This document shows positions 30,577-43,390 of a stretch of DNA of 64,000 nucleotides, in pieces. Both the position numbers and the translations under genes were made by a program. Origin of the DNA: Candidatus Zhuqueibacterota bacterium (lineage in GTDB: Bacteria > Zhuqueibacterota > Zhuqueibacteria > Residuimicrobiales > Krinioviventaceae). The number at the start of each line of letters is the position of its first letter. The first letter of the stretch is position 1. The stretch covers positions 1-64,000 of the forward strand of contig JAFGSB010000041.1 in assembly GCA_016934825.1 (NCBI GenBank). Reading direction: 5' to 3'. The notes below the pieces were generated by a model that worked only from the letters and a program-made list of their open reading frames with translations, searched no databases and was not told the origin of the DNA.

Positions 30577-33500
30577 ATGGAATCATATTTTATGGCCGCC
30601 AACAGTAACATTATCACAAAAAATTCTAAAATAGCATGGATGAACAATTTCAACGACTTGTACCGCACGCTATTTGAAAACGCAAACGACGCCATTTTCA
30701 TCGAATCGGAAAAAGAAGAAATTATTAAAGTAAATAAAAAGGCATGTGAGCTGACCGGCTATAGCATTGAAGAACTGATCGGGAAAAAAACCTGGGATTT
30801 AAAATCAAAAGAACGAAAAAATGATCCGTGCCAGCAAATATATTCCACTCCTGATAAATTCAATAACTATAAATTTGAAAGCGAAATTGAACGGTCCGAC
30901 GGTACTATTATACCGGTGGAAATTACAATCGCATCGATAAAGCATGAAGAGAAAGTACTATTTGTCTCAATTGTCCGGAATATTACGGAAAGAAAACAAT
31001 ATGAAAAAATACTGCTGCAAAATGAAGAAAAATACAGAACCATATTCAATACAACCGGTTCAGCAACCCTGATAATCGATGCCGATAACACGATACTATT
31101 GGTTAATGCGGAATTCGAAAAGCTTTCCGGATATAAAAAAAGACAAATTGAAAACATAAAAAAATGGCAGGAATTCATTACACCTGTCGATTTAAAAAGA
31201 TACAAAAAATATTACATTAACAGATTTAAACAGACACCCCGCTCTCACCGGAATTTTGAATTCAAGTTTGTTGATAAAAAAGAAAATTTTAAAGACGTTT
31301 GCCTCACTGCGGAAATCATTCCGGGAACCACACGGACCGTCATTTCCCTGTTGAATATTACCAGTGGTAAACAAACGGAAAAAGCACTCAAAGAAAAAGA
31401 AGAACACTTTAAAGCGGTCGTTGATTCCGATCATACCGGTATATTGTTGTATAATTCCGAAAATATAATCACTTTTGTGAATAATGCGGTTACCAACTCG
31501 TTGAACTTGAAAAATGAAGACCTGGTCGGGAAAAAACTAACAGACCTTATCTTTCTCAATGCAAAAGACGAACCGGGTACGTTTGACCTTTTAAACAGCG
31601 ATGAACTGGTATTGAAAAATAAATATGGATCACTCAAATATTTTATCTTTTCCACATCTCAATTACGTAAACGCAAGGGCAAACTCAAAGAGACCATGCT
31701 CATCCTGACTGAGATTACGGAACGCAAACAGGTGGAAAAAACTCTTGCAATCGAGCAAACGCTAATAAATTCCCTGATAGATAACGTGCCCGATACAATA
31801 TACTTTAAAGATAAAAAAGGGCATTTTATAAAAATTAATAAAGCGCAAACCAAAGTACTGGGCTTAAATAGACCGGAAGATGCAATCGGAAAAACAGACT
31901 TTGATTTTTTCACCCGTGAACACGCGTCGGATGCTTTTAACGATGAACAAAAAATAATCGAAAACGGCAAACCACTAATTGGGAAAATTGAAAAAATCAG
32001 GCATGCCAACGGCGAATTCCGATGGGTTTCGGCTACCAAAATCCCCCTGGTCATTAATGGAGAAACCGTCGGTATCGTCGGTATTTCCAGGGACATAACC
32101 GAACTCACCGAAATGAGTAATGAACTGAAACAAAAAAACAAACAACTTGATATAGCCCTGGCAAAAGCGGAAAGCGCGACCCTCGCAAAATCCAATTTCC
32201 TTGCCAACATGAGTCATGAAATTCGCACGCCGATGAACGGTGTGATCGGCATGACGAACTTGCTCCTGGAAACGGAACTCAGTAAAGAGCAACAGGAATA
32301 CCTTGAGACTATTCGAAACGGCGGCAACGCGCTGCTGGTACTGATTAATGATATTCTTGACTTTTCAAAAATCGAATCGGGAAAATTGGAACTTGAAAAT
32401 CAGGAATTCGACTTAAGAGACAGGATTGAAGAATCCCTGGATTTGCAGGCCGCAAACGCCACTCCAAAAGGTATTGAACTGGCATATCTGATAGATGACA
32501 ACACGCCAACCACGATGATTGGCGATGTAACGAGGTTAGGGCAGATATTGAACAATTTATTAAGCAACGCCGTAAAATTCACCAAAGAAGGAGAAGTCAT
32601 CATTTACATCTCTGCCAGGGAAATTTCATCAAGATATTATGAATATAAATTTGCCATTAAAGATACAGGAATAGGTATTCCAAAAGACCGAATGGACCGT
32701 CTGTTCAAGTCTTTCAGTCAGGTTGACATGTCGACAACACGAAAATATGGCGGTACAGGTTTGGGCCTGGCGATCAGCAAACGTCTGTGTGAATTGATGA
32801 AAGGTAATATGTGGGTTGAAAGTCAGGAAAATGTTGGTTCAACCTTTTATTTTACTATTCAGACGAACACTGCGCCTCCAAGACCAAAGATCATTATCCG
32901 CAGTACCAACTCTATATTAAAAGACAAACGGGTTCTGATTGTTGATGATAATGGAACCAACAGGCGAATATTAACCCTTTTAACTCAAAGTTGGAAAATG
33001 CTTTCCATGGAAGCGGCATCCGCTGTTGAAGCCTTAAATCTGATAAACAAAGGAACCCCTTTTGACGTTGCCATACTGGATATGCAAATGCCCGAAATGG
33101 ACGGATTAGAGTTGGCAAAAGAAATTCGTAAAATTCCGGCTACAAAACTTCTGCCACTGATTATGTTGTCTTCCATTGGCTGGCAGGAAAAATATTTTCA
33201 AAAATCCGGCCTTAACTTTGCGGGGATTATGACAAAACCTGTAAAACATAATATGCTTTACAATACATTGATTTCTATATTTAAAGGCAAAACCGATAAC
33301 ATTGATTACAATGTTAATCGTAAGAACAGCATTGATCCGCAAATGGCAAAATGGCTGCCGCTGAAAATATTGGTTGCAGAAGACAATGTCATTAATCAGA
33401 AATTGATATTACGATTGTTAAAAAAGATGGGTTACGATGCCGATATCGTCAGTAACGGTATCGAAGTCCTCATTGCGTTGGAAAGGAAAATATATAATGT

Positions 33501-33732
33501 GATTTTGATGGATGTACAAATGCCGGAAATGGACGGGCTGGAAACTACCCGGATAATTTGCAAAAAGATCGACCGCGATAAGCGGCCGCAGATCATCGCG
33601 ATGACGGCAAATGCCATGCAGGGGGATAAAGAAAAATGTATTGAGGCAGGCATGAACGATTATATTAGTAAACCGATAAATGTTAACGAACTTTTAAAAG
33701 TCTTATTTAAATGTAAAATTTCAGTTAATTGA
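30577..33732 (+). CDS. hybrid sensor histidine kinase with four PAS and two receiver domains
   Basis: The 1051 residues read: four PAS domains (about 25-140, 145-270, 275-390, 395-515, each closed by a variant of ITERKQxEK), a short coiled coil, HisKA with His547 in NMSHEIRTPMNG, and HATPase_c with NNLLSNAVKFT, DTGIGIP and GGTGLGL. Two receiver domains follow, with Asp835 (ILDMQMPEMDG) and Asp979 (LMDVQMPEMDG). All phosphorylation residues are intact. No transmembrane helix is visible, so it is probably a cytoplasmic sensor. It lacks its own Hpt domain, but the next gene encodes one. No output regulator is adjacent. Confidence 0.95.
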   Translation: MESYFMAANSNIITKNSKIAWMNNFNDLYRTLFENANDAIFIESEKEEIIKVNKKACELTGYSIEELIGKKTWDLKSKERKNDPCQQIYSTPDKFNNYKFESEIERSDGTIIPVEITIASIKHEEKVLFVSIVRNITERKQYEKILLQNEEKYRTIFNTTGSATLIIDADNTILLVNAEFEKLSGYKKRQIENIKKWQEFITPVDLKRYKKYYINRFKQTPRSHRNFEFKFVDKKENFKDVCLTAEIIPGTTRTVISLLNITSGKQTEKALKEKEEHFKAVVDSDHTGILLYNSENIITFVNNAVTNSLNLKNEDLVGKKLTDLIFLNAKDEPGTFDLLNSDELVLKNKYGSLKYFIFSTSQLRKRKGKLKETMLILTEITERKQVEKTLAIEQTLINSLIDNVPDTIYFKDKKGHFIKINKAQTKVLGLNRPEDAIGKTDFDFFTREHASDAFNDEQKIIENGKPLIGKIEKIRHANGEFRWVSATKIPLVINGETVGIVGISRDITELTEMSNELKQKNKQLDIALAKAESATLAKSNFLANMSHEIRTPMNGVIGMTNLLLETELSKEQQEYLETIRNGGNALLVLINDILDFSKIESGKLELENQEFDLRDRIEESLDLQAANATPKGIELAYLIDDNTPTTMIGDVTRLGQILNNLLSNAVKFTKEGEVIIYISAREISSRYYEYKFAIKDTGIGIPKDRMDRLFKSFSQVDMSTTRKYGGTGLGLAISKRLCELMKGNMWVESQENVGSTFYFTIQTNTAPPRPKIIIRSTNSILKDKRVLIVDDNGTNRRILTLLTQSWKMLSMEAASAVEALNLINKGTPFDVAILDMQMPEMDGLELAKEIRKIPATKLLPLIMLSSIGWQEKYFQKSGLNFAGIMTKPVKHNMLYNTLISIFKGKTDNIDYNVNRKNSIDPQMAKWLPLKILVAEDNVINQKLILRLLKKMGYDADIVSNGIEVLIALERKIYNVILMDVQMPEMDGLETTRIICKKIDRDKRPQIIAMTANAMQGDKEKCIEAGMNDYISKPINVNELLKVLFKCKISVN

Positions 33733-33764
33733 TCTAATAAAGATGTATTTTTTAGGAGTGAAAA

Positions 33765-34121
33765 ATGCAAACAGTGGACATTATCAACAACGAAGAGCTA
33801 TTTGCACGGGTGGCCGGTGATGAGGAACTGCTTCATGAAATAGTAGAACTATTTATGGAGGATCATCAAAATCATCTTTTTAATATTAAAAATGCTCTTA
33901 ACAAAAAAGATGCCGCGCAACTCGTCAGGGCAGCACATACATTAAAAGGAGCCGTAGCTACGTTTGCCGCCAAAAGCGCAACCCAGGCGGCTTTAAAACT
34001 TGAACTTATGGGCAGAAGCAGGAACTTTAACGGCAGTAGTGAAGCATACATGTCTCTTGAAAAAGAGATAGAATTATTAAAACAGGCATTGACAAGTTTC
34101 TGTTCAACACCGAACCATTAA
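33765..34121 (+). CDS. histidine phosphotransfer (Hpt) protein
   Basis: The 118-residue all-helical protein carries the Hpt motif LVRAAHTLKGAVATFAA with the phosphorylatable His58 and the conserved HxLKG. The start is supported by AGGAGTG 5 nt upstream. It lies 32 bp after the hybrid kinase on the same strand, and presumably passes phosphate between the kinase's receiver domains and an output regulator encoded elsewhere. Confidence 0.93.
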   Translation: MQTVDIINNEELFARVAGDEELLHEIVELFMEDHQNHLFNIKNALNKKDAAQLVRAAHTLKGAVATFAAKSATQAALKLELMGRSRNFNGSSEAYMSLEKEIELLKQALTSFCSTPNH

Positions 34122-34347: not shown

Positions 34348-34465
34348 CGCCCGCTAATCAGATTTTCAAGTTCAATAAAATCAATTAATATAATTATCAA
34401 AATTCAATTTTTACATAAAATCAAATAATGAAAATATGAAAACTTAAATATAATAGTAGAATACC

Positions 34466-34487
34466 GTGTCCGGGTTTAACCGGACAC
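34466..34487. repeat. palindromic repeat, GTGTCCGG family (copy 4)
   Basis: It is identical over all 22 bases to the copy at 79-100, including the GTTTAA centre. It lies 29 bp beyond the stop codon of the last small gene of the symporter operon. Confidence 0.75.
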
Positions 34488-34516
34488 GGCTGTATTACAT
34501 ATTCAATTCAATAATA

Positions 34517-34678
34517 TTAATTTTCTGCTTCATCCTGCTCTTCGGATACCTGCCGGGTAAAATGTTTGTAAAGTATATATGCAACAAAAAATGAAATTGC
34601 AAAAATAAAAGCCGGAATTATGTAACCCAAAACAGGAGATCCGATTCGGGTGGTCGTTTGTGCAAAAAAAGCGGTCAT
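34517..34678 (-). CDS. small single-span membrane protein (53 aa), symporter operon
   Basis: This gene is absent from the ORF track. The 53 residues start MTAFFAQTTTRIG, have one strongly hydrophobic helix (VLGYIIPAFIFAISFFVAYIL, about 16-36) and end in an acidic tail (SEEQDEAEN). A ribosome binding site AGGAG lies 9 nt upstream of the ATG, within the end of the preceding small gene, whose stop is 3 bp before. I do not recognise the family. Position and coupling point to an accessory subunit of the symporter. Confidence 0.75.
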   Translation of the reverse strand: MTAFFAQTTTRIGSPVLGYIIPAFIFAISFFVAYILYKHFTRQVSEEQDEAEN

Positions 34679-34681
34679 ATC

Positions 34682-34819
34682 TTATATCTCCTGTTTTTTA
34701 ATTCCTGTTTCATTCTTTTTTTTATTCTTTTTATAATAAATCCAGGCAAAAATCAGTCCGGCCAGCGAAAATAAATAGGAAATCGACATACCGATTACAA
34801 CAGACAGTCCGTTCTCCAT
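34682..34819 (-). CDS. small single-span membrane protein (45 aa), symporter operon
   Basis: This gene is absent from the ORF track. The 45 residues (MENGLSVVIGMSISYLFSL...) contain one transmembrane helix at about 6-29 and a very basic C-terminal tail (KKNKKKNETGIKK). GGGAGGAG precedes the ATG by 5 nt, a near-ideal ribosome binding site. It starts 2 bp after the stop of the 96-residue membrane protein. The function is unknown; it is likely part of the same complex. Confidence 0.75.
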   Translation of the reverse strand: MENGLSVVIGMSISYLFSLAGLIFAWIYYKKNKKKNETGIKKQEI

Positions 34820-34821
34820 AA

Positions 34822-35112
34822 TTACTCCTCCCACCTTTGTATTTTTTCAAGGTTCTTTAAATATTCCCTTTGTTTCTTTTCATATCCTTCGGATACGGAT
34901 TTCAATTTGGGATCAATAATGTAAAACATAATAAAAGTCAACACAATGCCGATGCCCAGCAAAATAAATCCCAGTGGTAATAAGAACAGCGACATTGCAA
35001 GTCCAAGGGTTATCAACACATAACTGAATGGCGAGATAATAATGGCATACCAGTCTTCTTTGGTCCATTCATCCGCCTCATCAGATGTCCAGTTTCTTTT
35101 TATTAATGGCAT
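34822..35112 (-). CDS. small two-span membrane protein (96 aa), symporter operon
   Basis: After a polar, acidic start (IKRNWTSDEADEWTKEDW), two hydrophobic helices cover about 23-45 and 47-67 (YVLITLGLAMSLFLLPLGFIL, LGIGIVLTFIMFYII). A charged cytosolic tail (YEKKQREYLKNLEKIQRWEE) ends it. AGGAGG lies 6 nt before the ATG. The gene follows the symporter by 9 bp. Small partner proteins are known for some SSS-family transporters (for example YhdT beside PanF, DUF4212 proteins beside ActP-like permeases), but I cannot assign this one to either family. Confidence 0.75.
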   Translation of the reverse strand: MPLIKRNWTSDEADEWTKEDWYAIIISPFSYVLITLGLAMSLFLLPLGFILLGIGIVLTFIMFYIIDPKLKSVSEGYEKKQREYLKNLEKIQRWEE

Positions 35113-35121
35113 TTTAACCTC

Positions 35122-36735
35122 CTATTGATCTTGTTCTGCCGCTTTACGGTCGAACTCGTGCAAAGCTTTTAACAAGCCGCGCCGTTCGGCTTCCCTTTTT
35201 ACCGGTCCCCAAAAACCGATGGGGCGTGTCTGTACGTACAACTTGACCAGTCGGTCCATATCATCCGGTTTTGTTAACAGTGTTACAGGAACATAAATAA
35301 CAGCGACCAAAATGATCAACAACCAGAATTGCTGGTAATCCGGCAGTTCAGGTATAATGCCAAAGGCGGGGAGAATCCAGACAACCAGCCAGCAAATACC
35401 CAGGTTAGCGATCCAGGCGGACAGGTATCCCCATGCATTGAACCGCCACCAGATAACCTGCAGGATATTCGGCAGCCAGGTACCCGCTACCATCAGCCAT
35501 AAAGCAAAAAATAACCAGTCAATCACATTTTTGCCGATCATCAATCCAAAAAAGAATGAACCCAGCAGCACAACCACTGTCATAAGTCGTCCAAACCAGA
35601 CTACTTCTTTTTCAGTGGCTTTTGGTTTTAAATAGTGATGATAAAGGTCCCGGGTGGCATACATTGAACCCAAATTTAAAACACCGGCAACAGTGGATAT
35701 GTGAATCGCAAGGATCGCGGCAAAAAAGAATCCGACCATACCGACCGGAAAATATTTAAAACCGATGATGAACCAGGCTAACTGGGATTCCTCTGCGGTA
35801 AAATTACCCTTTGATATAACAAAAAGGGCGAGTACGGCAAGCGCCCAGATAGAGTTCCTTACCAGTACAACCGCGGTCCCCCACCAGATACTATAGGAAG
35901 CATCCCTGACGTTTCTTGCGGATTGAATACGCTGCGCCTCAACAAACCAATCAAAATGTGTAGCCATGCCGAATCCGCCCAAAAATGGAACGGCGATCAT
36001 GGTGATCATCCAGAGTAACGGGTAATCGCCCGAAATAAAACCCGAACTGCGGAAGGGATTGAGCATTTCTTCCTGACCCATCTGCTTCAACGAGGCGACA
36101 ATTTCTGCGGGGCCGCCTGCTGCGATTGCAGCCCAAATTGACACCAGAACAATAACGATCAACATGGTAATACCCTGCTGCACATCCGCAATAATCACTC
36201 CCCAGTAACCGGACGCAATAACGTATAAACAGCATAATGTTGAAAAAATGACCAGGCCATACCACAGAGGCCAATGAAACACATAATTACACACATTACC
36301 CATCGCTATACCGACCCAGCCCGCAATGAACATGGTCATCGCGACCTGCCAACCGGCAATCCAGCCGCGAAGCATTTCACTTCCCAGACCGCTGAATCTT
36401 AAGGTTTGCCATTCGGCCTGCGTCCCGGCAAGCGAACGCCGGAATATCCGGGTGGATACCCATGCGCTGATCGCGCACCAGCCCGCAAACAATGAATACC
36501 ACATACCATATAAACCCTTTTGATAAACCAGCCCGGAAAACCACATGGGCGTATCGGTCGCGGTATGGGTCGCAAAATTTGATGTCGCCGGTAACCACCA
36601 GGGGAGTCCCCGTCCGGCCAGGAAAAAATCGGAACCCGACCGTTTTCCCAGTTTGTAAAATATGGCGCCACAACCAATCATTAAAATCAGGTAGGCAATT
36701 GTCCAAAAGTAATCCAACCAGGCAAAATGAACCAT
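35122..36735 (-). CDS. sodium:solute symporter (SSS family)
   Basis: The 537-residue protein has about 13 transmembrane helices. The family start YKLGKRSGSDFFLAGRGLPWWLPATSNFATHTATDTPMWFSG covers the unwound helix and sodium site region, and PVGMVGFFFAAILAIHISTVAGVLNLGSMYATRDLYHHY is the typical SSS signature. It takes up a solute with sodium. The neighbours (ROK kinase, NagB-LmbE fusion) point to a sugar or amino sugar, as inference. The ribosome binding site AAAGGAG is present. It is followed by three small membrane-protein genes. Confidence 0.92.
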   Translation of the reverse strand: MVHFAWLDYFWTIAYLILMIGCGAIFYKLGKRSGSDFFLAGRGLPWWLPATSNFATHTATDTPMWFSGLVYQKGLYGMWYSLFAGWCAISAWVSTRIFRRSLAGTQAEWQTLRFSGLGSEMLRGWIAGWQVAMTMFIAGWVGIAMGNVCNYVFHWPLWYGLVIFSTLCCLYVIASGYWGVIIADVQQGITMLIVIVLVSIWAAIAAGGPAEIVASLKQMGQEEMLNPFRSSGFISGDYPLLWMITMIAVPFLGGFGMATHFDWFVEAQRIQSARNVRDASYSIWWGTAVVLVRNSIWALAVLALFVISKGNFTAEESQLAWFIIGFKYFPVGMVGFFFAAILAIHISTVAGVLNLGSMYATRDLYHHYLKPKATEKEVVWFGRLMTVVVLLGSFFFGLMIGKNVIDWLFFALWLMVAGTWLPNILQVIWWRFNAWGYLSAWIANLGICWLVVWILPAFGIIPELPDYQQFWLLIILVAVIYVPVTLLTKPDDMDRLVKLYVQTRPIGFWGPVKREAERRGLLKALHEFDRKAAEQDQ

Positions 36736-36802: not shown

Positions 36803-37918
36803 TTAATTTTTATCCAGCATATGTAACGCGAATGCGTATGCGCCTAAACTTACAGATCTGCTTGTGCCAAGTCTGCTTATACCGACGCCCACTCTTTTAA
36901 GCGGGTCATAAAGTATTTTTTCACCCGTAACCGGGACTTTAATTTCTTTCACATCTCCCCTTATAAATGCCGCTTTGTCATTTATATCTTCCAGATTGAA
37001 GGCTTTTGATTCCATTCGATTTATATGTTCGCCGTCATATGTTTCCATAAAACCGTTCATTTCGCTGATAACGGCGGGTAAAAATAATTCGCATGCACCC
37101 GCCAAACCGCCGCCGATCACAACAAGTCCGTCAATCAAAGCAGTCGCGCTTGCCAGTGCATCTCCCACTATTTCGCCAAACTCCCGGAATGCATCTATGG
37201 CGGAATTTTTATTTCCGGGTAATTTACCAAGTCCAATCGTGTAAATATCTATTGGCTCCGGGACTTTTTTAATATCCATGCCGGATTTTTTTGCATATGA
37301 TCGCTTAATACCTCGTATACTGGCCCCTTCTTCGGCAAATGAATGCGTGTTTATTTTGTTACGTAGGGTCCATATTTCGGCTCCGGCGGCGTTGTCGCCG
37401 ATAAATAACTCACCGTTACGGACTATTCCCGCGCCAAACCCTGTTCCAAGGGTCACGCCGAATAGATTATGATAACGTTTCGGACTGCCGGCAATTTCCA
37501 GTTCCTCGTTTATATATGGCAGCAAACCGTCGATAGCCTCCCCATATACAAACAGATCCCCGTCATTATTTATATATACCGGGATATTAAAAACACTTTT
37601 TAACATGGGGCCTAACGCGATCCCGCCGCGAAAACAGGGCAGGTTTCCAAGGTCCCCTATAATACCATTCGGATAATCAGCGGGACCGGGAAAGGCGAAA
37701 CTGATCGCCACAGGTTCCCCCCTTATATCTTTTTTCACTTTATTAAAACCGTCAATAATTGTTGAGATGCAGGCATTCAGATCATTCGCATTGGATGGCA
37801 GAATAATCTGACCTGAAATTTCCTCATTCCCCTGTATGGCCGAAAACACAAAATTGGTACCGCCCGCATCCAGTGTCATCACAATTCTTTTATCAGCATC
37901 ATACTCCATGGATATCAC
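36803..37918 (-). CDS. ROK-family sugar kinase lacking the zinc motif
   Basis: The 371 residues show the ATPase-fold start VMTLDAGGTNFVFSAI, the ISFAFPGPADYPNGIIGDLGNLP segment, the sugar-binding NNDGDLFVYGEA with the catalytic Asp, FGVTLGTGFGAGIV and a second nucleotide motif LVVIGGGLAGA. The zinc motif (CxCGxxGC) of classic ROK kinases is missing; the region reads AGAEIWTLRNKINTHSF instead. It probably phosphorylates an imported sugar such as glucosamine, N-acetylglucosamine or mannose. The start could be the GTG at 37918 or the ATG at 37909. It lies 67 bp upstream of the symporter. Confidence 0.82.
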   Translation of the reverse strand: MISMEYDADKRIVMTLDAGGTNFVFSAIQGNEEISGQIILPSNANDLNACISTIIDGFNKVKKDIRGEPVAISFAFPGPADYPNGIIGDLGNLPCFRGGIALGPMLKSVFNIPVYINNDGDLFVYGEAIDGLLPYINEELEIAGSPKRYHNLFGVTLGTGFGAGIVRNGELFIGDNAAGAEIWTLRNKINTHSFAEEGASIRGIKRSYAKKSGMDIKKVPEPIDIYTIGLGKLPGNKNSAIDAFREFGEIVGDALASATALIDGLVVIGGGLAGACELFLPAVISEMNGFMETYDGEHINRMESKAFNLEDINDKAAFIRGDVKEIKVPVTGEKILYDPLKRVGVGISRLGTSRSVSLGAYAFALHMLDKN

Positions 37919-38150: not shown

Positions 38151-38495
38151 TTATTTTAAAAAATCCTGTCGTACCGGCGTAAAAGTATCAAAAATCAGGG
38201 CATCCGTATCGCCAATCACCACGACACCATGCGGTACATTGGGCGGCACCAGGTAGCCTTCACCGGCCTTTAAAATTTTTTCGTAATTTTCGACGGTAAC
38301 TTTTAATGCGCCCTGAAGGATGTAACCGGATTGTTCATGGGGATGCCGATGGATCGGCGCTGCCGCACCGGCTTTTATTTCTACCAGCACATGCATAATA
38401 TTCCCCATCCATATTTGTTTACGCCGAATGTTTTCATCCACAACAATCCACTCCAGTTTTTCCCAGTTAAAAAATGGATTCCTTAAGTTTTTCAT
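38151..38495 (-). CDS. cupin-domain protein
   Basis: The 114-residue protein is a single small beta-barrel domain. Cupin motif 1 reads IHRHPHEQSGYILQG with metal-ligand histidines and a glutamate or glutamine position, and motif 2 reads PPNVPHGVVV. It may be a sugar-phosphate isomerase, a binding protein or a regulator subunit; sequence alone does not decide. It lies 23 bp downstream of the NagB-LmbE gene and is probably in its operon. Confidence 0.85.
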   Translation of the reverse strand: MKNLRNPFFNWEKLEWIVVDENIRRKQIWMGNIMHVLVEIKAGAAAPIHRHPHEQSGYILQGALKVTVENYEKILKAGEGYLVPPNVPHGVVVIGDTDALIFDTFTPVRQDFLK

Positions 38496-38518: not shown

Positions 38519-40873
38519 TTATTTTGCTTCAGTTGCTTTACGTAATTCCATCGTCCGATTGTAAAATTCGTCCGGCTGCATTTCTTTTATATAAACAAGG
38601 CCATGACATGCCCGTAATCTGGGATGAGTGCTTTGATAAAAAAACTCGCGTCCCAGGCAGGTTTTAATATCAAGGTACTGGTCCACCATTATTTTTCTCG
38701 CCAGCCTCGAAAATGGCCCGTCCAGCTCATAACTGGGAAAAGACGCGTTGCGCTGCGAACCGAAACATTTGTCAAATGCGTTTTCCAGAACAGCCAGGGA
38801 ATTCAGGGAAACAGGTACCATGATATCCGCTTCGGAAGCGTTAAAACGGTACCAGACATTTCTATATCCCCATATTTTTATATCTTTGCGGCCGGTTTTT
38901 TCCTGGTATATCTTTAACGCCTCGCTAATGATCTGCAATACCTTGTAATGGGTATCCGGGCCGCTCGCTTCCGGGTCCAATGCGACCGTAATGGTGGTCG
39001 GTTTTACTTTTTCCAGCAATTCCAGAACCGGCGGGACGTCCCGCTCAACGCTGGGTTCTTCCGTGAATATATCGCCTTTATAGAATCCCAGGCGTAAATG
39101 AAATACATTTTTATTACTGAATCCCAGGTAACCCCACAACAGGTCCGCTTCCCATTCCCTGATCATACCCTTAAACTGCTGAATATAGGGAAGATCTTTT
39201 TTACCGGGATATTGTGTTTCAAAATACATAATGAGTTCGCGGACCCTGTTTTTGAGCTGTTTGGGACTGGTTTCCTCGAATAAAAACATTAAATTCCGTA
39301 AGAGTCTTCTGGCTTCCCCGTCTTCCTGCATGGTCCTCCTGTGCGCGGCCACACCGTCCAGGTATCGATACACATCCCGGTTTCTGGCGATCTCATCCGA
39401 AGGATCAAAATACCCGGTATCCATGAATTGTTGATAAGCGGGCGTATCCAGATGCTTTAATAGAATATTCAATAACTCATGGACGTAGGCGTTCGTTACG
39501 GCGTTAAAGCCGCTCGTCATATACGCAAAATGATGAATATTTAACGGCGTTCGGGTAAGATGCATAATATAAGCCCAATATCCCAGCATGATATCATCGT
39601 GATGCGGGGCCGTATGTAAAAATCGTTCGTTTTCAATCTGCGCCAGTCCCCGTTCTATTTTAGCTTTCAGCGAATCCCGGCTGGTTTGGATCATTTCAGG
39701 TATTGTATAAGTTCCCGCTTTCGCAATAGACCGCGCGGAACGGGTGCTATCAAAATCAGCCGCTTTTAAATCCTGAATACTTTTATTCTGCCTGACGGCC
39801 AAATCGATAATGATCTTTTCAATTGTCTGCCGGGGAAGGGAATCGTTTTTTTTCAGGTCCTCACATTGCCGTTCAGTTAATAACAGGGCCGCCCCTTTGG
39901 TCAAATAAAAACGACTGTTTTTCAGTTTCTGTAAAACTGTTGCCGGGTAAAGATTGGATATTTCACTTTCCACCGCTTCCTGAATCACTTTTGCCTTGGA
40001 TTCGCCGGCTGCGATGATTATTGCAACCGTATCGGGATTTTGGGTAATTGTTGACAGCCCGATGGTAATCACCAGCCTGTTTCGGGCAATTTCAATGCCG
40101 CCCAGGTCGACTGCTGCTGCGGCCTGGGTTTCATAATTTGTCGCCGTTAACCGTGTCGTTGAATAATGGTCCGAGCCGTGCACATTAAAACCGATATGGC
40201 CGTCCGGGCCGATACCGCCGATAAAAAAACCGATCCCCCCCATATCCCGGATGCGTGTTTCGTATTCCGTACAATACTGGTCGACGCGTTCAATAACGGA
40301 TTTTTGCAGACGCTCAAGGCTGTTGCGCTCAAAACGTGTACGCAAACTCAAATCCACAATGTTATCCGGGAAAATTTCTTTTATCAATGAATTCTCCGGG
40401 ACGCCGGTGGTCCAGGCGTTTATTAACAGCGCTTTTTTTATATCAAGTCCCAGTGAATCAATATAGAATTTTTTTATATAATAAGAAAAACTGTTGCTAT
40501 GGGTCGGATTGATCGGGTAAAACTCGTCAATCTGAACAAATCGCAGTAAATCCATCCTGGGGGTGATCTTTGTATCCAGACCGAATTCTTCAAGTTCGGC
40601 CGCGACTGCTTCTTTACCCCAGTTTTGAATATAGTGTTTGACCCATTTAATAAAATGTTCCGGGGTTCTCCCGGTAGGCAGTGAAATAACTCCCTCAGGG
40701 TTGTATTGCACCCATTCTAAAAAACGCATGGCGGTCAGTTTCCCAAGCGCGGGGAAATTGTCCACCTCTATGACGGCAATTTTTTCGGTTGGCTGATACA
40801 TAAACTGACGACCGCTCTTTTTTAACGCGGTTTGTTCAACTTTGGATTCCGGTAAAGTCATAAAATTTTCCAT
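38519..40873 (-). CDS. glucosamine-6-phosphate deaminase / LmbE-like deacetylase fusion
   Basis: The 784 residues combine two enzymes. Residues about 35-350 are NagB-like: VISLPTGRTPEHFI, FVQIDEFYPI, the catalytic-loop motif IGGIGPDGHIGFNVHGSDHYSTTR, and a sugar isomerase core. Residues about 415-770 are PIG-L/LmbE-like, with the metal motif TAPHHDDIMLGYW (His-His-Asp-Asp at 424-427). The same fusion is known from Bacteroidetes nagB-like proteins. It would link N-deacetylation of an amino sugar with deamination of GlcN-6-P to fructose-6-P, as inference. No clear ribosome binding site precedes the ATG. Confidence 0.88.
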   Translation of the reverse strand: MENFMTLPESKVEQTALKKSGRQFMYQPTEKIAVIEVDNFPALGKLTAMRFLEWVQYNPEGVISLPTGRTPEHFIKWVKHYIQNWGKEAVAAELEEFGLDTKITPRMDLLRFVQIDEFYPINPTHSNSFSYYIKKFYIDSLGLDIKKALLINAWTTGVPENSLIKEIFPDNIVDLSLRTRFERNSLERLQKSVIERVDQYCTEYETRIRDMGGIGFFIGGIGPDGHIGFNVHGSDHYSTTRLTATNYETQAAAAVDLGGIEIARNRLVITIGLSTITQNPDTVAIIIAAGESKAKVIQEAVESEISNLYPATVLQKLKNSRFYLTKGAALLLTERQCEDLKKNDSLPRQTIEKIIIDLAVRQNKSIQDLKAADFDSTRSARSIAKAGTYTIPEMIQTSRDSLKAKIERGLAQIENERFLHTAPHHDDIMLGYWAYIMHLTRTPLNIHHFAYMTSGFNAVTNAYVHELLNILLKHLDTPAYQQFMDTGYFDPSDEIARNRDVYRYLDGVAAHRRTMQEDGEARRLLRNLMFLFEETSPKQLKNRVRELIMYFETQYPGKKDLPYIQQFKGMIREWEADLLWGYLGFSNKNVFHLRLGFYKGDIFTEEPSVERDVPPVLELLEKVKPTTITVALDPEASGPDTHYKVLQIISEALKIYQEKTGRKDIKIWGYRNVWYRFNASEADIMVPVSLNSLAVLENAFDKCFGSQRNASFPSYELDGPFSRLARKIMVDQYLDIKTCLGREFFYQSTHPRLRACHGLVYIKEMQPDEFYNRTMELRKATEAK

Positions 40874-40982: not shown

Positions 40983-43265
40983 CTACCCTGTTTCCGGTTT
41001 ATGAACGGCGGGGGCCGTATAACTGAATTTTCTGCCAAAACCGCACAAATATATTAAAAATACCAATCCGAAAACAGCCGCAAACAATAACGTTTTTGTA
41101 AAACCGTACAGGGGGATAAAAAAACCGCTGATCACTATGGACCCGCATGCGCCGCCGATCAGGTCCGCTGCATAAACGGTACCGGCCCTGTGTCTGCCTT
41201 TAATCCGACAATATGAAACACAGACAAGCGGGAAAATACCGCCCGTTAAAGCGCCGGCGCAAAACAATAAAATAAAAAATAATAAAAATGAACGCGAAAC
41301 AAGCACAAATTGTAATAACGGTGTTAAAAACAGCAGCAATAAAATCAATAGCGTTAAAAACAAAACAAGTACAAACCTGTTGGATATTTTTTCAAGTTTA
41401 TGATTTATGATCAAACTCATCAAAGCCATACCCGTCATAAACACACTTAGGGCCAGTCCGATCCATTCATAAATATAACCAAAAATTATCTGGAAAAAAA
41501 GCAGCAATAATACATTCATGGTAATACTGGCAAAGCCAAAATAGGCCGTTAAACCGGGTATAAAGAATAAAAAAACCGTTTTTTTATCATGAAGAATAAA
41601 AGAAAAAATAACAAAGCATATTAATATTATTATCGGAAAAATCAATGTAAATTTGTAATCCAGCCGGGATATTTGCACAAACAGCCCGCTATGGCCGCGA
41701 ACAAGTTTGTTCCACAGAACAAAATCATAATAATAGGAAACCGGCGCAAAATCACGATTGACCCGGTTCACATCGGCACTCTCCAGCGTCTCCTGGATAA
41801 AATTCAACCTTTCCGGGAAATAGTATTGCCAGAACATGTGCGAATAAAAATAATCGCATTGTACCCCGCTGCTGATGAATCTTTCAGCCAGCAATTGTGT
41901 ATTAGTAGTGAGACCATTATTTTCTATCGACGCGAAATAAATGGCCGCGTCTCCCGGAATAACGACCACATCATTAAACTGTTGTCTTAATTGCGAATAA
42001 AGTCCGGCGTTGAGCTGTAAAAGTTCAGGGCCAAAATAATTTTCAGCCGAGGGGAAACCGCAAACCGTAAAAATGCCGCCCCGTTTTAATTTGCTTTTGG
42101 CCAGTCTGAAAAATTCCCCGGTAAAATACCTGTTGTTGGACGCTGTTGCCGGTCTGCCGACATTGACGATGATGATATCAAATTTTTTTTGACTTGCGGA
42201 TAAAAAATAACGGCCGTCCGTAAATACCATTTTCAAATTGGATTTACGGAATAAATTCAGATAGACGCTATCCTGATGTGATAAACACAATTCACAGGCT
42301 TCCCTGTCAAGTTCGACATAAACAATATCGCTGTTTTCATACTTTGCCAGTTCCCCGGCCAGTCCCCCCAGTCCGCCGCCCAAAAGTAAAATATCCCGCG
42401 GCCCGGGATGCTGGGTCATGACCAGCGAAGCAAGTTCCTGCGAACCGACCGGGTCCGGAACTATAGTTTGCTTTACGCCGTTGACATATAAACTTTTCTC
42501 GCCCCCCCAGTCGACAAGGGCCAGTTCCCCAAATTTCGACTGCCGCCAGTCGATCAATTGCATTTGTTTATCGAACGATTGCCAGTATTGCCGCAGCAGA
42601 ACAGTTTGGATTTTTTTTGACAGCGGGGAAAACAGCACCAGTAATAAAACGACAGCGATGAATATTTTCCACAATGCTTTTTCAACAAGAAAAAGGAAAA
42701 ACAATAACATGGCGACCAGCAATAGCAGGACTTCCATGTTGCTTAAAAAAGAAAAAGCCGCGAGGCTGACTACAAATCCGGCAAAAGCGCTGCCGAATGC
42801 TTCAAATATATAAATCCTTGAAGCGGGATCGCCCCGCAAGTGATGACCGGCGCCGGCTCTCCCGGCAAGAAAGGAAAACTGGAATCCGATCAGCAAACAC
42901 GGACCAAGCAAAACCAAAAAGGCGAATAAGGTCAATTCGATAAACGAAACATACTCTCCGTAAGGTATATCAAAAAGGACCCTTACATATTTGATCGCGA
43001 TAACGGCCAAAATACTGGTCAGAAAAAGTAAAAACTGTAAAAAGGAAAATATTGTGATCTTTTGAAAACAGGATTTTCGGATCAGAACTGTGCCCAGCCA
43101 GCTTCCCGATGCCACCCAGAATAACCAGACGGACAATAAAATTCCTATACATAATTCATTTCCGTAAAATACGGCCATGAATTCCCGCATCAGGATAATT
43201 TGTATCGTAATGGAGGCGATACCCAGACATAACGCGTAAATATGAAGAGAAAATCTGGAAAACAT
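40983..43265 (-). CDS. polytopic membrane protein with spermidine-synthase-like domain
   Basis: From the ATG at 43265 it has 760 residues. About eight helices (1-230) precede a soluble domain with the SAM or decarboxylated-SAM binding motif DILLLGGGLGGLAGELAKY, then VYVELDREACELC and VFTDGRYFLSASQKKFDIIIVNVGRP. About seven further helices end the protein. Fused transporter-like/spermidine-synthase proteins occur widely in bacteria, and their product is not established. The track start (TTG at 43328) is 21 residues longer; either could be used. It seems to be transcribed alone, behind a terminator. Confidence 0.8.
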   Translation of the reverse strand: MFSRFSLHIYALCLGIASITIQIILMREFMAVFYGNELCIGILLSVWLFWVASGSWLGTVLIRKSCFQKITIFSFLQFLLFLTSILAVIAIKYVRVLFDIPYGEYVSFIELTLFAFLVLLGPCLLIGFQFSFLAGRAGAGHHLRGDPASRIYIFEAFGSAFAGFVVSLAAFSFLSNMEVLLLLVAMLLFFLFLVEKALWKIFIAVVLLLVLFSPLSKKIQTVLLRQYWQSFDKQMQLIDWRQSKFGELALVDWGGEKSLYVNGVKQTIVPDPVGSQELASLVMTQHPGPRDILLLGGGLGGLAGELAKYENSDIVYVELDREACELCLSHQDSVYLNLFRKSNLKMVFTDGRYFLSASQKKFDIIIVNVGRPATASNNRYFTGEFFRLAKSKLKRGGIFTVCGFPSAENYFGPELLQLNAGLYSQLRQQFNDVVVIPGDAAIYFASIENNGLTTNTQLLAERFISSGVQCDYFYSHMFWQYYFPERLNFIQETLESADVNRVNRDFAPVSYYYDFVLWNKLVRGHSGLFVQISRLDYKFTLIFPIIILICFVIFSFILHDKKTVFLFFIPGLTAYFGFASITMNVLLLLFFQIIFGYIYEWIGLALSVFMTGMALMSLIINHKLEKISNRFVLVLFLTLLILLLLFLTPLLQFVLVSRSFLLFFILLFCAGALTGGIFPLVCVSYCRIKGRHRAGTVYAADLIGGACGSIVISGFFIPLYGFTKTLLFAAVFGLVFLIYLCGFGRKFSYTAPAVHKPETG

Positions 43266-43390
43266 ACCCGCCCGTAATTTAAATTTGACCGGTTTCTTGA
43301 AAATAAAAATGATTTTTATCATTATCAAACCATTTTTGCACCGGACCCCATAAAATGTTCCCGTGGCCTCCCCTGTTCGGCAAAAATCTA

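Follow-up and report, generated by a model that had tools for sequence, protein, structure and literature searches.

The window, a stretch of 64,000 nucleotides from a Candidatus Zhuqueibacterota bacterium, carries on its reverse strand a compact cluster of four genes, here named S, A, B and C in 5' to 3' order. S (35122..36735) encodes a 537-amino acid (aa) sodium:solute symporter of the SSS/SLC5 family, recognized by Pfam SSF and TIGR00813. It is followed by A (34822..35112), encoding a 96-aa two-transmembrane (TM) hairpin protein, and by B (34682..34819) and C (34517..34678), encoding single-TM proteins of 45 and 53 aa; none of the three small proteins matched a known family. The first-pass annotation had described a symporter of 537 residues followed by proteins of 96, 45 and 53 residues with two, one and one TM helices, strong ribosome binding sites and 2–9 bp between genes, and this description was borne out. 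Coordinates, lengths and spacing agree, the measured gaps being 9 nt (S–A), 2 nt (A–B) and 3 nt (B–C), and hydropathy gives 2, 1 and 1 helices for A, B and C, as it does in nearly all relatives. Each small gene has a Shine–Dalgarno (SD) sequence that overlaps the end of the preceding gene: that of A (AGGAGG, 35118..35123) overlaps the stop codon of S, that of B (GGGAGGAG, 34825..34832) lies within the C-terminal W-E-E codons of A, and that of C (AGGAG, 34688..34692) falls within the last codons of B, all on the reverse strand.

Directly after C lies a strong GC-rich hairpin on the same strand (34464..34490), with an 11-bp stem, no long T run and a minimum free energy of -26.9 kcal/mol (z=-5.95). 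It had no match in a consensus terminator scan and is the probable end of the transcription unit. A consensus promoter scan performed no better than on shuffled sequences. Convergent with this operon, the forward strand encodes a 1051-aa hybrid histidine kinase with several PAS and two receiver domains (30577-34121), followed by a separate 118-aa Hpt protein.

Identity and fold of the symporter

S matches Pfam SSF (PF00474) with E=3e-25 (89 bits against a cut-off of 22.8) and TIGR00813 with E=4e-32. Thirteen TM helices and an inward-facing C-terminus are predicted for it, an arrangement of 13 helices that SiaT and PutP share, and its closest relative of solved structure by sequence is vSGLT. 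We generated an AF2 model in which S is tethered to A through the S stop codon, a modelling device that is not evidence of read-through or contact; pLDDT lay mostly between 80 and 94 for the core of S, with moderate confidence (about 66-81) for the helices of A. The top PDB matches of this model in Foldseek were SGLT2–MAP17, which ranked first, SGLT1–MAP17, vSGLT and SiaT, and the LeuT-type 5+5 fold was matched in SGLT2, vSGLT, SiaT, NIS and CHT1, with E down to 4e-15. Two motifs are conserved across orthologues, a Na+-site Ser/Thr pair in TM8 (AIH-x-S-T/S) and ATHTATDTP in TM1, their equivalence to the Na+ sites of PutP and vSGLT being judged by eye. S is a genuine SSS/SLC5 (TC 2.A.21) carrier, and it is predicted to carry out Na+-coupled transport.

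The small genes accompany S in all orthologous loci with sufficient flank

S orthologues were collected as 35 loci from a species-level genome collection together with relatives of the window's genome, and each locus was scanned in all six frames with profiles of A, B and C. The sample contains a few loci in which the same genome was reached twice, and some labels of metagenome-assembled genomes may be wrong. Where the flank was long enough, in 55 of 55 loci including that of the window, intact A, B and C adjoin S on the same strand, always in the internal order A-B-C; two further loci without the triad both end at a contig edge. A and B overlap or lie ≤4 nt apart in 48 of 49 loci. Relatives of S share 59% to 84% identity with the window's protein, and their hosts are labelled KSB1, Calditrichota, Neomarinimicrobiota, Acidobacteriota (Bryobacteraceae and others), Ignavibacteriota, Aminicenantes, Rhodothermales/Bacteroidota and, in one case, a deltaproteobacterium. 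No relatives were found in the plasmid and virus collections searched. The first-pass annotation had held that its reading would fail if relatives kept the symporter and had lost or frameshifted the short genes; among the 55 loci there is no such case, with no frameshift in A, B or C and the short genes retained in every one.

A group of loci (L037 and L058–L065) at first appeared to lack the triad, which in fact sits upstream of S. The order A-B-C-S occurs in two lineages of the S tree, one comprising L043, L054 and L055 and the other L037 with L058–L065, and in both the linkage of S to the triad survives the inversion of order. Such conserved linkage shows functional association, not contact.

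Whole-genome co-occurrence was assessed in 82 genomes of the window's phylum, B and C being searched in 81 of them. S is present in 27 of the 82 and A in 26, each in one copy, and the 26 genomes with A are also those with B and C; the only exception is a genome in which S is present but cut by a contig end (G003). The remaining 55 genomes, including one of the same genus, lack all four genes, so that the module is gained or lost as a whole. The co-occurrence is significant by Fisher's test with relatedness ignored (p ~2e-20). The four proteins also show correlated evolutionary distances (r 0.38-0.67, against permutation maxima ≤0.24), a correlation that is partly due to shared species history. 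In the window's own genome, scanning the retrieved flanks of 13 other SSS genes revealed no triad beside any of them, only some weak chance matches of open reading frames.

The small genes are under coding constraint

The first-pass annotation had suggested dN/dS as a check on the short genes. Pairwise values range from 0 to 0.18 in A, from 0 to 0.39 in B and from 0.05 to 0.37 in C, which places all three genes under purifying selection. The SD sequence of B is embedded in the conserved C-terminal Trp-Glu codons of A (TGG GAG GA), and Glu follows the last Trp of A in 49 loci, all 49 of which encode it by GAG, whereas this codon serves for 169 of the 425 Glu residues elsewhere in A. Based on per-locus codon usage in 45 non-duplicate loci, the product of probabilities is ~1e-19, uncorrected for shared ancestry. 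This constraint at the SD sequence of B within A provides a second, independent sign of translation. The motif is missing from five loci, L023, L024, L029, L031 and L034, whose labels are Rhodothermales or Bacteroidetes/Bacteroidota, a group of bacteria that in general does not depend on SD sequences.

Natural fusions agree with the predicted membrane topology

Both termini of A are predicted to be cytoplasmic, and the protein contains the invariant residues W8, W16, E19, D20, P68, K69 and W94. By the positive-inside rule, B (motif VIGMSIAYxxSxxGLxxAWxxYRK) and C (motif RIGxPxLGxxIPAxIFxxSFxVTWxLYKHFSK) are both oriented N-out/C-in. A direct fusion of B to C would thus need exactly one extra membrane crossing, while a fusion of S to A would need none, since the C-terminus of S and the N-terminus of A are both inside. 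These are the arrangements found in Deltaproteobacterium RBG_13_61_14 (L033:4001-6224), where A continues the C-terminus of S in a 609-aa protein and B is joined to C in one of 134 aa, with an extra TM helix between B and C. The fusions lend support to the predicted topology as well as to the association of the proteins. Long C-terminal extensions of S in several other loci (for example L026) result from tblastn alignments running past the stop codon, leaving L033 as the sole true fusion.

The first-pass annotation had also read the charges of the tails, acidic in C and very basic in B, as a sign of a complex, an argument that we do not retain. The acidic tail of C is confined to the window and a few relatives, the mean net charge of the C tails being about +2, and the basic tail of B is conserved but represents an ordinary positive-inside signal.

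Relationship to known symporters with small partners

None of the small proteins matched a curated family above cut-off, whether A (19 members against Pfam; NCBIfam), B (24 members against NCBIfam) or C (the window's protein), and A had no match among PDB sequences. In these scans, which for C covered the window's protein alone, none matched DUF485, DUF997 or DUF3311.

The VC_2705/DUF4212 system (TIGR03648/TIGR03647) is similar in that a bacterial SSS carrier has an adjacent small two-TM protein of about the size of A; it differs in having one small gene where there are three here. Identity with this system was ruled out: A aligned to the DUF4212 small subunit with an hhalign probability of 0.4% and did not match TIGR03647/DUF4212, and S scored 33 bits against TIGR03648, for which the cut-off is 320.75. 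TIGR03647 was not found in the window's own genome, and the small subunit occurs in other genomes of the phylum.

ActP with YjcH (DUF485) and PanF with YhdT (DUF997) likewise pair an SSS carrier with one small membrane protein. The symporter MctP is co-regulated with, or adjoins, one DUF3311 small membrane protein (PMC9100948). All three of these systems differ from the present one in having a single partner, drawn from other families.

In humans, MAP17, the partner of SGLT2 and SGLT1, is a different protein, encoded separately, and the reason why SGLT2 needs it is still debated. SGLT2–MAP17 and SGLT1–MAP17 resemble the present system in combining a carrier of the SSS/SLC5 fold with a small single-TM partner, although there is one partner as opposed to three. 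In SGLT2, MAP17 is an essential auxiliary subunit with one TM helix, which contacts TM13 as part of the fixed scaffold (PMC10803289); TM13 is absent from bacterial S, for which 13 TM helices are predicted compared with 14 in SGLT2. SiaT, which gave the highest target-normalised TM-score (0.80), as well as vSGLT and PutP, share the carrier fold of S but have been studied as lone polypeptides.

Bacterial SSS/SLC5 carriers have been treated as single-protein machines. The words subunit, accessory and auxiliary are absent from a 2021 review of prokaryotic SSS transporters (PMC7918813). In the accessible part of a review of transporter modulation, small-protein regulators are named for other transporters, and for the SSS family, under which that review files SbtA, only PII–SbtA is given (PMC10710835). 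Three obligate partners on one SSS carrier, all of new families, were not found in the freely accessible published literature searched.

Neighbouring genes point to sugars

Upstream of S, on the same strand, lie genes for a ROK-family sugar kinase (36803..37918; 67 nt from S; Pfam ROK E=5e-18), a cupin-domain protein (38151..38495; Pfam Cupin_2 E=3e-18) and a 784-aa glucosamine-6-phosphate deaminase-like protein of the PRK02122 type (38519..40873; NCBIfam NF002557 E=3e-68). The last falls well below the curated cut-off of NF002557 and barely scores against Pfam Glucosamine_iso; it is a divergent enzyme. Beyond it, also on the reverse strand, is a gene for a 781-aa membrane protein (40983-43328) in which a spermidine-synthase domain is flanked by membrane regions.

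Among orthologous loci, genes near S encode ROK kinases (the window, L012 and L017), GlcNAc 2-epimerase-like proteins (L023 and L029), GH38 mannosidases (L015 and L041), N-sulfoglucosamine-type sulfatases (L011 and L025), a sialate-acetylesterase-like protein (L039) and a 3-keto-disaccharide hydrolase (L029). No single neighbouring gene is conserved, and the host lineages are rich in sugar genes. Because the flanking genes vary by locus they do not fix the substrate, but the recurrence of sugar-linked neighbours points to sugars, and the substrate of S is most likely a sugar or amino sugar.

A proposed four-component symporter

Taking these observations together, we consider it likely that one Na+-coupled symporter is built from four dedicated parts, S, A, B and C, with a sugar or amino sugar as its most probable substrate. 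The first-pass annotation had proposed an undescribed multi-subunit SSS transporter. The association that this implies stands on the all-or-none co-occurrence, the fusions, the linkage through inversion and the embedded SD sequence; the complex itself, including the binding of A, B and C to S, its stoichiometry and its effect on transport, we infer.

In the proposed mechanism, the four proteins would be co-produced through their overlapping genes and SD sequences, and S would move Na+ and substrate through the usual SSS alternating-access cycle. A, B and C would be accessory subunits placed on the lipid-facing surface of S, where they would help it to fold, stabilise it or tune it, adding four helices around the carrier that may be needed for folding, stability or activity in a MAP17-like manner. 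A would be positioned beside the C-terminus of S on the cytoplasmic side, as in the natural fusion of L033. More speculatively, since S lacks an equivalent of the last SGLT helix, at least one small subunit may take the same place.

These considerations have to be set against readings in which the small genes have other roles. Leader-like or chance frames downstream of the symporter could account for B and C being very short and lacking a family match, in which case neither would be translated. Their conserved protein motifs and purifying selection, their SD sites (that of B constrained within A), the 55 loci free of frameshifts and the natural B::C fusion already contradict this idea, which we regard as barely credible. 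A, B and C might instead be transient regulators of S, acting through inhibition or control of turnover as opposed to being constant subunits. Small one-TM bacterial proteins often behave in this way, the accessible part of the transporter-modulation review naming SgrT, MgtS, MntS, MgtR, MgtU and AcrZ (PMC10710835). However, the three genes share a tightly packed unit with S and are never missing from it, and in L033 A is fused to S, and B and C to each other. Small-protein regulators are usually under separate control, which also argues against this role, and we think it unlikely.

Finally, the three proteins could form a small membrane complex of their own, such as a sensor or chaperone, that serves the same pathway and does not bind S. 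Consistent with this, A-B-C is the tightest block of the cluster and remains together even when S switches between upstream and downstream positions. Yet the block never occurs without S in the 82 genomes of the phylum, A is fused to S in L033, and A, B and C have no recognisable functional domain, making such a separate complex quite improbable.

A broader version of this proposal, in which S-A-B-C represents a widespread class of obligately heterotetrameric Na+/sugar symporters whose four needed extra TM helices come from three new small families, could equally well prove right or wrong. If right, it would provide the first case, in the literature searched, of a prokaryotic SSS transporter that has more than one dedicated subunit. 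The work adds three protein families kept over several phyla, two of which, at only about 28-56 aa, can easily be overlooked in annotation. Being testable in E. coli, a bacterial carrier with three invariant small partners would reveal the role of helices of this kind.

Locus-specific features

In L037 and L058–L065, which form one clade, S carries an insert of ~125 aa in the loop before TM6 (for example L062:1153-1536), expected on the periplasmic side. AF2 confidently predicts a beta-rich domain (pLDDT 88) that had no significant match in the PDB, and which, judging by the order of its sequence, may be a circularly permuted Ig/Kre9-like domain. L027, the only locus with a gap of >600 nt inside the module, contains between S and A a 142-aa open reading frame (L027:5740-6165), possibly of the S23/four-helix-bundle type, together with repeats of the 'MLDARC..' type. 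Elsewhere in the window's genome (C85, L078), 27 nt downstream of another SSS paralogue, lies an SD-equipped gene for an unrelated small membrane protein of 73 aa, possibly another single-partner SSS system. For structural work on the proposed complex, the S::A and B::C fusions of L033 are a construct that nature already provides.
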